Shown here: positions 2,970-42,624 of the stretch, piece after piece
Layout: each line of letters starts with the position of its first letter
Position numbering within the stretch: position 1 is the stretch's first letter
DNA from: Levilactobacillus mulengensis
Lineage (GTDB): Bacteria; Bacillota; Bacilli; Lactobacillales; Lactobacillaceae
DNA: 64,000 nt
Assembly (NCBI RefSeq): GCF_003946045.1
Contig: NZ_RHNW01000010.1
Location: forward strand, 1 to 64,000
Reading direction: 5' to 3'
Position numbers and translations under genes: made by a program
Notes under the pieces: model-generated
What the model saw: only the letters and a program-made list of their open reading frames with translations
The model's database searches: none
What the model was told of the DNA's origin: nothing

Positions 2970-3005
2970 GAACGAGGCGGAAGCAATTCCGACCTCGTTT
3001 TCTTT
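2970..3005 (+). terminator. secA terminator
   Basis: A stem made of AACGAGG-CGGAA and TTCCG-CCTCGTT lies ten bases after the secA stop codon and runs into TTTTCTTTT. This is a typical intrinsic terminator. Confidence 0.8.
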
Positions 3006-3143
3006 TAACTTCGAGAATGTTATTGGAAATCAAGAAGGTCAGACAGTCTTAGTCACGAATAAGTTTAAGACAAAGTTTATTGGCGGCATATGACTGATAA
3101 GTGTGTCATACTAGTGGGAGTCTTGTTTGTGGGTTAAACTAGT

Positions 3144-3324
3144 GTTAGCCGCAGGGCTGGTGAAAATGAGCTCAGCCGTGGGAATTACCTTAGCAGCTGG
3201 TCTGCTTAGGCAATTGCTATCTTTGAGCCTCGGGCTGTGAGGCTCAAAGTAAGTCTGGAGACCGCTCTTTGGCTCCAGACGGGCGCCCACAGCGTCACGG
3301 CTCATTTTTCACCAGCCCGGAGGC
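3144..3324 (-). ncRNA. Structured intergenic element, copy A
   Basis: A 181-base element with conserved borders (GCCTCCGGG at one end, CTGCGGCTAAC at the other, read on the minus strand). Its ends pair through GGGCTGGTGAAAA and TTTTCACCAGCCC. Inside are a GTGGG/CCCAC helix, a hairpin with loop core AGCCAAAGAGCGGTCT (3259-3274 on the minus strand), a CTTTGAG/CTCAAAG helix and an AATTGCCT/AGGTAATT hairpin. Copy B at 13424 has the same fold with compensating changes in several helices. G-U pairs in two helices of this copy favour the minus strand as the RNA. No clear promoter is visible, so it could instead be a fold-back repeat; expression is not shown. Confidence 0.55.
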
Positions 3325-13281: not shown

Positions 13282-13320
13282 CGGCCACTGAAGACTTGCT
13301 TTCAGTGGCCGCTTTCGTTA
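13282..13320 (+). terminator. pst operon terminator
   Basis: CGGCCACTGAA pairs with TTCAGTGGCCG across a seven-base loop and is followed by CTTTCGTT. The stem is strong, the U-tract moderate. Confidence 0.8.
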
Positions 13321-13423: not shown

Positions 13424-13604
13424 GCCTCCGGGAGAGTGAAAACGGTCCGGAACGCTGTGGGCGAACGCCCGGAGCCAAAGAGCGGTCTCCGCGCTTACTT
13501 TGAGCCATCAAGATGTCTCAAAGATATCAATTGCCTAATCGGCCTAGTTCGCCGATAAGGCAATTCCCACAGCTGAGACCATTTTCACTCTCCCTGCGGC
13601 TAAC
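13424..13604 (+). ncRNA. Structured intergenic element, copy B
   Basis: The same element as at 3144-3324 but in the opposite orientation and also 181 bases long. Outer helix GGGAGAGTGAAAA with TTTTCACTCTCCC, helix GCTGTGGG with CCCACAGC, hairpin with loop core AGCCAAAGAGCGGTCT (13473-13488), helix CTTTGAG/CTCAAAG, and hairpin AATTGCCTAATCGGC with GCCGATAAGGCAATT containing one A-A mismatch that both copies keep. Helices that differ in sequence from copy A still pair. A TATGAT box lies at 13384-13389 but lacks a good -35 partner. It lies after the phoU terminator and before the pspC promoter. Confidence 0.6.
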
Positions 13605-28292: not shown

Positions 28293-28516
28293 GAAAATCA
28301 GACGGTGTGCTTCCGTTCCCGGCGGCGGACTCAAGGCGCCCTGCTGTGGGGTCGGTTCCAGCCGAAGGGCGGGCTTCCACCTCAACTTTGAGCCTGAGAG
28401 GCGGTCTCAAAGGTTGCCCCGTGGAACTAGGCTGGGAAAGAACCCCAGCCAAGTCCACCGACACAGCTGGGCACCTTGGCCCGCCTCTGGTCACTCACAC
28501 TGGCCGAGTCATTTTC
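28293..28516 (+). ncRNA. Structured intergenic element, copy C (divergent)
   Basis: A 224-base relative of the elements at 3144 and 13424. Ends pair through GAAAAT (28293) and ATTTTC (28511). The helix GCTGTG (28343-28348) pairs with CACAGC (28462-28467). The loop core reads AGCCGAAGGGCGGGCT (28360-28375), differing from the other copies at three positions. CTTTGAG with CTCAAAG is retained, and the last hairpin is a different sequence (GGCTGGG with CCCAGCC) that still pairs. It begins right after the coaDR stop, and the next terminator is at 28629, so it may be transcribed as the 3' part of that message. Confidence 0.45.
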
Positions 28517-28628
28517 GGTGGTCGTCGGAAGGGGTGGACTGGTATGGTTAGCCGAAGATTCTAGAATGGCATATCGTAGCCCCAGCAACGGTGAATCTCA
28601 GTCTTAATGCGTTAGGAAAGATAGTTTA

Positions 28629-33960: not shown

Positions 33961-33992
33961 AATTAAGTACTCAAAAATACTGATGCTGTTAT

Positions 33993-34064
33993 GCGCCCGT
34001 AGTGTAATGGATCGCACGTAAGATTCCGGTTCTTGAAATGGGGGTTCGATTCCCTCCGGGCGCA
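33993..34064 (+). tRNA. tRNA-Arg (anticodon CCG), copy 1
   Basis: A 72-base cloverleaf: acceptor arms GCGCCCG and CGGGCGC with discriminator A, anticodon stem TAAGA/TCTTG with loop TTCCGGT giving anticodon CCG, and T arm GGGGGTTCGATTCCCTC. CCA is not encoded. It reads CGG arginine codons. A second identical gene lies at 34949. Confidence 0.95.
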
Positions 34065-34070
34065 TCAGTT

Positions 34071-34918: not shown

Positions 34919-34948
34919 AATTGAGGTGTTGTTCATAACAATTTTTAT

Positions 34949-35020
34949 GCGCCCGTAGTGTAATGGATCGCACGTAAGATTCCGGTTCTTGAAATGGGGG
35001 TTCGATTCCCTCCGGGCGCA
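34949..35020 (+). tRNA. tRNA-Arg (anticodon CCG), copy 2
   Basis: Identical over all 72 bases to the tRNA at 33993-34064, with the same acceptor, anticodon CCG and T arm, and the same flanking AT and TCA bases. Confidence 0.95.
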
Positions 35021-35034
35021 TCACTAACAACACG

Positions 35035-41361: not shown

Positions 41362-42624
41362 ATGATGAATTTTACAAGATTGCGCGTCATGCTGTTGATG
41401 GTTAGTGGCTTTACTGTGGGGATGGGGAGTGTTGGTGTGTTTGGAGGCTCGGTGGCTTGGGCTAAATTGGTGACCGTGGAGCACAAGATAAATGCTTTTA
41501 ATGAGGGCGATACTAAACCTCAGACAGTGCTTTATAAGAAAGAGACACAAAATCTTCAAACTGAAGACGACGTGAAGACATTACCAGCGTTGGAACATTT
41601 TACGTCACAGCATTATTCGGAACATAAAGGACAAGTAACGGTTGTATATAATGGTTCTCTAGCATTGGCACATGTTCATCTGATTTTTGAGATTGAGAAT
41701 GGGAGAATAATTTCTAAACGAGAATCTAAGCCAGAATTAACTCTCGGCGGTCGGTTAGTCTTTGATGTTCCGGCAGGTTATAAGTTGGTTGATGTTGGGG
41801 ATGCTGAGCGCAGAGTACTGTCTTTATCTGAAGAATGGCGTGTTAAGGTTAAGGCCATTTCCACGGGGGAACCTGGTGGGCAAGTGGGTGGTTCTGAAAC
41901 AAACGGCGGACCAAATCCGCAAGTACCTGATACGAAACCAGAACCGAAACCAGAACCGAAACCAGAACCGAAACCAGAACCGAAACCAGAACCGAAACCA
42001 GAACCGAAACCAGAACCGAAACCAGAACCGAAACCAGAACCGAAACCAGAACCGAAACCAGATAAGCCCGCCAAACAACCAGACGCTGGTGACAAGGACG
42101 TAGTGGCCATTCCTAAGCCGCCAGTACCGTCGAAACCACAAACCAAGCCAAGTACACCGCAGGCACCAACGCCACATCCTAGGCCTGTTCAGGTGCCCAC
42201 AATCACGCACCCCATCGGGCAACCGGCCTTGGACGCTGTTTCACGGCCAGGTAAGAAGCCGGTGCCTACGCTGACCACCGCACCCAATACCAGTACCTTG
42301 CCGCAATTGCAGGTGGTCAATCATCCGCTGAGCCATCAAGGGGCTGCGGATTGGTGGCACCCGGTGACGGCAAATGTTACGCCAGATAAGCCAGCTAAGC
42401 GACCAGCTCAGCAGACGCATCAGCCCCAAACGGCTCATCGTCGTCCGGCTGCGAATCCAGCGACTAGTGCTCGGCAGCCAGGTCATATTGCAAAACCAGC
42501 ACAGTCGGCAAAAACGTCGCAGTTACCCCAAACGGATGAACAAACGCTTCCATTGGCGTGGTACGGCGCTAGCGTCCTTCTAGGACTCACCGGTCTGACC
42601 GGGTACCGGCGGATTCGTCGTTAG
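41362..42624 (+). CDS. LPQTD-anchored surface protein with EPKP repeats
   Basis: A 420-residue cell-wall protein. Residues 1-35 form a signal peptide ending near GGSVAWA. A globular region (about 36-175) is of no family I recognise. Residues 194-233 are ten perfect EPKP repeats, and a long Pro/Thr/Lys/His-rich wall-spanning region follows. The C-terminus has the sorting signal LPQTDE (388-393), a hydrophobic segment and the basic tail YRRIRR, so sortase A would attach it to peptidoglycan. GAGGGGG lies seven bases before ATG 41362. The DNA coding for the N-terminal half is visibly richer in A and T than its neighbours, hinting at a transferred domain. Confidence 0.85.
   Translation: MMNFTRLRVMLLMVSGFTVGMGSVGVFGGSVAWAKLVTVEHKINAFNEGDTKPQTVLYKKETQNLQTEDDVKTLPALEHFTSQHYSEHKGQVTVVYNGSLALAHVHLIFEIENGRIISKRESKPELTLGGRLVFDVPAGYKLVDVGDAERRVLSLSEEWRVKVKAISTGEPGGQVGGSETNGGPNPQVPDTKPEPKPEPKPEPKPEPKPEPKPEPKPEPKPEPKPEPKPEPKPDKPAKQPDAGDKDVVAIPKPPVPSKPQTKPSTPQAPTPHPRPVQVPTITHPIGQPALDAVSRPGKKPVPTLTTAPNTSTLPQLQVVNHPLSHQGAADWWHPVTANVTPDKPAKRPAQQTHQPQTAHRRPAANPATSARQPGHIAKPAQSAKTSQLPQTDEQTLPLAWYGASVLLGLTGLTGYRRIRR
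41941..42060 (+). repeat. Ten perfect 12-base tandem repeats (EPKP coding)
   Basis: The unit GAACCGAAACCA occurs exactly ten times without a single difference. All three forward frames stay open across it, as do minus-strand frames, because the unit length is a multiple of three and lacks stops. Such perfect arrays change length readily by slippage or recombination. Confidence 0.97.

Follow-up and report, generated by a model that had tools for sequence, protein, structure and literature searches.

The window, the whole stretch of 64,000 nucleotides that was analysed (positions 1–64000 of one contig), belongs to the 3.11 Mb draft genome of Levilactobacillus mulengensis (36 contigs) and carries three copies of a structured repeat, named A, B, and C. 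Copies A and B have secA, prfB, phoU, and a PspC-domain gene as neighbours, and copy C is flanked by an oxidoreductase gene and a RapZ-like gene. Copies A and B are each placed after a terminator-like hairpin of the upstream gene, such matches being little above chance. The features are as follows.

3144..3324, − strand: copy A, type 1 repeat, 181-nt core (covariance model R1, 197.5 bits)
3131..3143, unstranded: outer inverted-repeat remnant adjoining copy A, GGGTTAAACTAGT as read on the + strand
2978..2991, + strand: terminator-like hairpin separating secA from copy A (two matches in the stretch against an expectation of 0.6)
13424..13604, + strand: copy B, type 1 repeat, 181-nt core (R1, 190.9 bits)
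13430..13442, + strand: copy B, helix P1, 5' side, GGGAGAGTGAAAA
13454..13461, + strand: copy B, helix P2, 5' side, GCTGTGGG
13470..13491, + strand: hairpin H1, loop AAAGAGC, bulged T
13498..13523, + strand: hairpin H2, CTTTGAG..CTCAAAG, C.T mismatch
13529..13565, + strand: hairpin H3, AATTGCCT..AGGCAATT, A.A mismatch
13566..13573, + strand: copy B, helix P2, 3' side, CCCACAGC
13582..13594, + strand: copy B, helix P1, 3' side, TTTTCACTCTCCC
13282..13311, + strand: terminator-like hairpin separating phoU from copy B (one match in the stretch against a chance expectation of 0.7)
about 28308..28530, + strand: copy C, type 2 repeat (longer-core subtype) without the 5' arm, placed by sequence profiles with approximate limits

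A first-pass annotation had grouped the three copies into one family of structured elements with common borders in A and B. Copies A and B are indeed members of one family with at least 149 copies in the L. mulengensis genome (R1, E ≤ 0.01; 149 of 150 candidates scored). Both are 181 nt long and have the loop core AGCCAAAGAGCGGTCT exactly in common, while their outer helices and inner hairpins differ in letters and stay complementary, as had been described. The common borders stand but are not the outermost limits of the element, as imperfect and often decayed terminal inverted repeats (GGGTTAAAC.. / ..GTTTAACCC) lie outside the 181 nt. Copy C belongs to the family, but not as a plain third copy of the A/B kind: it represents a different subtype with a longer core. 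It has a type 1 profile match at 28343–28417 (E 9e-6), was read beside other type 2 copies, and the type 2 profile counts one match in the window. Strong copies also draw weak mirror hits from R1 on their wrong strand, and the R1 score for copy C (28315–28498, 35.0 bits) is not above those on the wrong strand of A (48.0 bits) and B (35.4 bits); the assignment of C therefore rests on sequence profiles. Clustering of 198 arm-bounded stretches separated type 1, type 2, and single deletion forms, with type 1 clusters appearing in both orientations because the arms are palindromic. Type 2 has outer arms as in type 1 and H1–H3-like motifs in its longer core, and the repeat is accordingly about 180 nt or 260–300 nt long.

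In the L. mulengensis genome, blastn with copy B gave at least 41 matches (40 of 205 candidates scored), and an exact hairpin pattern matched 85 times (control, 0). The covariance-model search of this genome and its relatives that the first-pass annotation had proposed shows a family that reaches across the genus and beyond. R1 matched 33 of 35 Levilactobacillus genomes (E ≤ 1e-3, 77 candidates scored per genome, per-genome numbers possibly including mirror hits), the exceptions at this threshold being G012 and G024. At E ≤ 1e-5, matches were found in 63 of 301 genomes and 10 of 40 genera of the family (own genome included) and in none of 298 genomes of a class sample besides the own genome; these searches applied stricter filtering and took 9 candidates from each genome to scoring, so that weak matches may be missed. 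Plasmid and phage collections gave no match (distant blastn). At up to 10 kb from phoU, the repeat was matched in 17 of 30 Levilactobacillus-type loci (E ≤ 1e-3), including those of L. brevis, L. parabrevis, L. hammesii, L. namurensis, L. koreensis, and L. acidifarinae, and in none of 9 loci outside this type (of 19, from Dellaglioa, Listeria, Vagococcus, Bacillaceae, and Chloroflexi), the scan having taken 39 of the 49 loci found. A related copy lies after phoU, in the place of copy B, in several species of the genus (L249:10869–11030, L251:10889–11050, L261:10711–10895, L275:10912–11092). The two relatives G029 and G015 are 97% and 96% identical, respectively, to the own genome over a secA stretch of 1162 bp. 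Their 1.19 Mb of sequence contained 118 R1 matches at E ≤ 1e-10, which is not an unbiased density since many G029 stretches were picked for known copies. In 772 kb of G015 (three stretches), 76 type 1 and 121 type 2 matches were counted at E ≤ 1e-6, fragments included.

The predicted fold is a cloverleaf in which helices P1 and P2 close a junction of the three hairpins H1–H3. Copy B is more stable than expected both as DNA (z = −7.6) and as RNA (z = −9.0), with none of 200 shuffles equally stable. The type 1 alignment, from which R1 was built, comprises 76 of the 77 distinct copies scoring ≥150 (L031, cut by a contig end, was left out). Pairing holds in 97.9% of 3912 cells in these 76 copies (89.5% in shuffles), and both sides have changed in 30 of 52 pairs (14.5 in shuffles); none of 500 shuffles reached either value, and pairing dropped to 37–53% in control structures slid by 1–3 columns. 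A fold held by compensating changes, as first proposed from two copies, is thus borne out. Neither of the two outcomes that had been named as evidence against such a fold was seen: covariation remains strong in the larger alignment, and the copies, far from being near-identical and confined to one strain, reach across the genus and beyond. The helices also contain fixed irregularities, namely a bulged T in H1 (76 of 76 copies), a C.T mismatch in H2 (72 of 76), an A.A mismatch in H3 (74 of 76), a T.G or G.G mismatch in P2 (74 of 76, with a T-A pair in copy B as an exception), and a T.C mismatch near the ends (74 of 76). In the representatives read from other genera, the overall shape and several of the motifs are retained by eye, and the TAA/TAA mismatch motif in H3 recurs. 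The way in which shape and built-in mismatches are preserved looks more like that of DNA than that of an RNA gene.

Comparison with the Rfam 15 library gave only tRNA matches at gathering score for the window and no match for six loci from the own and other genomes, and a permissive scan of copy B returned one hit with an E value of 1.7. The family, which had not been recognised at first reading, is thus without a known Rfam counterpart; it is a real, large family outside Rfam 15, of the kind of high-copy structured interspersed repeats.

DNA and RNA readings of the fold were compared by counting G–T versus A–C cells in paired columns, with acceptor and T stems of tRNAs from the own genome, relatives, and a few outgroup loci as control (299 tRNAs, 160 loci, 42 distinct stem sets; 35 G–T versus 6 A–C). 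On the strand read in the first-pass annotation, hereafter the reading strand, aligned set A1 had 39 G–T versus 39 A–C, the sums of A1 and A3–A6, five partly overlapping sets, were 207 versus 232 (Fisher P 2e-6 against the tRNA control), and comparisons between orthologues gave 23 versus 19. Dropping weakly paired columns changed the type 1 sums to 103 G–T versus 178 A–C, an excess owed mostly to the mixed-genus set and to L. brevis. Compared by column, A–C exceeded G–T in L. brevis (17 versus 4) and in the mixed-genus set (18 versus 4, or 18 versus 2 with one mirror-strand row left out), which means that G–T is favoured on the opposite strand there; removal of its mirror row changed the G–T versus A–C counts of set A4 from 41 versus 55 to 39 versus 54. 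Type 2 had 112 G–T versus 17 A–C in the raw counts, mostly from columns in which G–T is common, and 24 versus 14 after five columns with <80% Watson-Crick pairs were dropped. Model-free realignment left the direction of type 1 unchanged, with a G–U bias on whichever strand was folded, while type 2 leaned slightly to G–T on both strands.

G–T is thus not favoured on the reading strand, and weakly so on the opposite one. Its lack of favour on the reading strand argues against an RNA gene there and for DNA. The regulatory or small RNA that the first-pass annotation had considered for this strand is accordingly less supported: its wobble counts (207 versus 232) depart from those of tRNA stems (35 versus 6), orientation does not follow the neighbouring genes (30 of 55 tandem contexts of well-kept copies), and a promoter-like site is absent upstream of A or B. 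Judged from sequence, an RNA gene on the reading strand is unlikely and RNA from the opposite strand is possible, if weakly supported. A reading in which the data rule out RNA altogether was dropped, since A–C above G–T in L. brevis is G–T on the other strand.

The alternative that survives best is a structured RNA made from the opposite strand, as a dispersed small RNA or as part of a UTR, whose function keeps the fold. Folding that strand gives a lower consensus energy for type 2 as well as for each of the four type 1 sets (70 copies: −96.3 versus −82.5), the L. brevis and mixed-genus columns favour it, and an alignment made on it contains more G–U than A–C (55 versus 30; 28 versus 6 in L. 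brevis), a count that is itself biased towards G–U. Of two promoter-like matches in the stretch (0.6 expected), one (9/12, − strand, 13701–13674) is oriented towards the opposite strand of B, but the stretch around A contains none. The opposite-strand G–T to A–C ratios of 232:207, or 178:103 when filtered, remain below the 35:6 of tRNA stems (P 5e-5 and 0.005), with 1:1 in A1. Together with the missing Rfam match and the many copies that are unoriented to neighbouring genes, this makes an RNA origin of the fold rather unlikely overall, and in the own clade the DNA reading fits best.

In 39 orthologous same-type comparisons, some copies being compared with both relatives, 1895 pair columns contained 61 one-sided and 22 compensated changes; if the sides changed independently, about 1.5 two-sided changes would be expected. 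Some of the compensated changes form blocks that resemble conversion from other copies, others are single pairs in otherwise unique copies. Change amounted to 2.8% per paired side versus 8.1% in unpaired positions. Nearest-neighbour identity among 33 well-kept G015 copies had a median of 93.3% and a maximum of 97.8%, so that very recent copying is not evident.

Isolated elements were compared among G000, G015, and G029 (144 queried); the 85 comparisons obtained yielded the same subtype in 60 cases, another subtype or a partial element in 20, an empty site in three, and no hit in two. Type 1 and type 2 replaced each other at seven distinct orthologous sites, with arms and flanks kept in the five alignments read. 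The three 'empty' comparisons, from two sites, retain part of the element, and another five cases with a short gap turned out to be array states or partial deletions; a clean empty site was hence not found among the 85 close-species comparisons. When orthologous stretches of the own clade and G006 were compared, the counterpart lacked a copy in 24 of 79 comparisons that started from own-clade copies and in 8 of 34 that started from G006 copies, with some sites counted more than once. No target duplication was found in the empty/filled comparisons, in which the three 'empty' cases retained part of the element and the six G006 boundaries read were too diverged to show one. The secA–prfB site is occupied by type 1 in the own genome and G029, by type 2 in G015, and in other species by distant copies in some and a short gap in others. 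A second, unrelated-looking repeat (GCGAGCATTAACG.. with ..CACGTTTCGGC..) fills this site in several species (L130, L132, L133, L134, L143).

These data bear on a second alternative, in which the copies are inert repeats whose compensation arises by polymerase template switching between arms and by gene conversion, with no selection on the fold. Template switching is a described process of arm homogenisation (PMC8604942), two-sided changes turn up even when orthologues are compared (22 of 1895 pair columns, where about 1.5 would be expected) and partly as single pairs, and the switching of cores points to conversion. Correction between the arms alone would account for the two-sided changes but not for the fixed mismatches, which it would erase: these are kept in 72–76 of 76 copies, a mismatch motif of H3 recurs by eye in other genera, and the fold as such is kept across genera. 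We regard inert repeats as a rather unlikely explanation.

Several arrays have the order type 1, flank, type 2, repeated flank (L054:1425–2242; similar in L036, L039, L007, and L019), as if the flank had been duplicated with an insertion. The 1.19 Mb from G015 and G029 contained no copy that clearly encloses a gene, and three arm pairs there lie more than 600 nt apart; these three aside, no clear parent autonomous element with the same ends was seen. A Y1 transposase was rejected as partner, as its presence is not correlated with the repeat: Y1 (PF01797) matches occur in 23 of 35 genus genomes, where draft gaps could hide genes, the copy-rich G029 has none, and G012 has five but no repeat at E ≤ 1e-3.

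Gene calls with a simple codon-usage caller, which left large gaps, placed 111 of 115 copies outside any called gene. The 108 copies with both neighbours called lie between tandem (n = 75), divergent (n = 25), or convergent (n = 8) genes, and are sparser between convergent genes than the gaps overall (8/108 versus 110/621). Well-kept copies show no orientation relative to the neighbouring genes. With replication direction inferred from the local majority gene strand and GC skew, 51 of 72 well-kept type 1 copies run along the local replication direction (P 5e-4, orthologues counted twice); the figures are 30 of 42 in G015 alone and 37 of 55 in the own genome, the latter from those of the 95 best copies that had enough nearby sequence. 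The bias is non-significant in L. brevis (20 of 33), in older type 1 copies, and in type 2. Host roles linked to the nucleoid, gyrase, or replication are known for REP/BIME elements; that the repeat is likewise a host-serving DNA site instead of a selfish one would agree with its persistence between close species (same subtype in 60 of 85 comparisons), the slow change of paired sides (2.8% versus 8.1%), and its scarcity between convergent genes (8/108 versus 110/621 gaps), but is highly improbable given G012 and G024 without a match (E ≤ 1e-3, 77 candidates scored each) and the varying occupancy of the secA–prfB site across the genus.

The reading that we prefer, with a probability of roughly one half, is that A, B, and C belong to an old, high-copy fold-back repeat that is recognised as folded single-stranded DNA by a putative enzyme and homogenised by recombination. 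Of the three initial guesses for the family (regulatory RNA, trans-acting small RNA, or fold-back mobile repeat), the mobile repeat is therewith the best. The elements would constitute a family of interspersed fold-back repeats, non-coding and present in Levilactobacillus as well as in several other genera of the Lactobacillaceae, that would have spread as non-autonomous mobile elements. Single-stranded DNA exposed at replication forks would fold, and a putative nuclease or recombinase acting in trans would read the shape and the mismatches. At present, most copies would persist and be homogenised by recombination through their shared arms. The shape and the mismatches resemble features that a protein would read on a folded strand, by analogy with the extrahelical bases of integron attC sites, and an orientation linked to replication brings to mind the single-strand transposition that takes place on the lagging-strand template (PMC6006769). 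A more specific form of this reading, which we put forward tentatively and consider less likely than not, is a single-stranded DNA cloverleaf read by its shape and a fixed mismatch code. During replication a putative enzyme acting in trans would copy and exchange it; cores would be interchangeable between arms that are common to all, and each species would have its own co-evolved set of hundreds. There is a fair chance that the family represents a new mode of single-stranded-DNA recognition.

Several known systems resemble the preferred fold-back repeat in part. BOX repeats are built of boxA-boxB-boxC modules. Like BOX, RUP, and SPRITE of Streptococcus pneumoniae, which are taken as parasitic, the present repeat is short, high-copy, structured, and slow-moving (PMC3049150). 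It is set apart from them, by their description in that source only, through its cloverleaf and fixed mismatches, and through its range of 33 of 35 genus genomes and 10 of 40 family genera, whereas BOX, RUP, and SPRITE are almost absent from most other streptococci. REP/BIME elements with TnpAREP are likewise high-copy palindromes with a link to single-stranded DNA and the lagging-strand template (PMC8266576, PMC6006769), but REPs measure 20–40 bp (PMC3733652), compared to 181–300 nt with three hairpins here, and have a cognate Y1 transposase, whose genes do not track the present repeat. Integron attC sites go with an IntI-type integrase and have gene cassettes between them. They too act as a folded single strand, whose identity is marked by extrahelical bases (PMC2727003); the present copies are far more numerous and no cassette genes were noted between them. 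MITEs have in common the terminal inverted repeats, the lack of genes, the intergenic location, and the structure, but are typically AT-rich (PMC10969869), unlike the GC-rich multi-hairpin core with covariation, for which moreover no parent element (1.19 Mb) and no target duplication (empty/filled comparisons) were seen. Among the papers listed from the open-access PMC literature, none deals with such a repeat in lactobacilli, judged by titles and abstract openings; L. johnsonii is among the genomes scanned for stem-loop families (PMC2267715), and a text search of PMC12306157 for words starting with lactobacill found no mention of lactobacilli.

If the preferred fold-back reading is true, the intergenic DNA of a food genus that includes L. 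brevis is rich in a structured repeat not listed in Rfam, and strong covariation can arise in a repeat that is apparently kept as DNA. Counting G–T versus A–C cells against a tRNA control would then be an easy means of challenging the step from covariation to RNA, and the fixed mismatches would offer a direct handle for fishing out the putative fold-reading protein.

The window holds two further repetitions. A 12-bp tandem repeat, ACCAGAACCGAA, spans 11 registers at 41901–42086 inside the ORF at 41362–42624, and two identical 79-nt stretches (33989–34067 and 34945–35023), 956 bases apart, contain one tRNA each.
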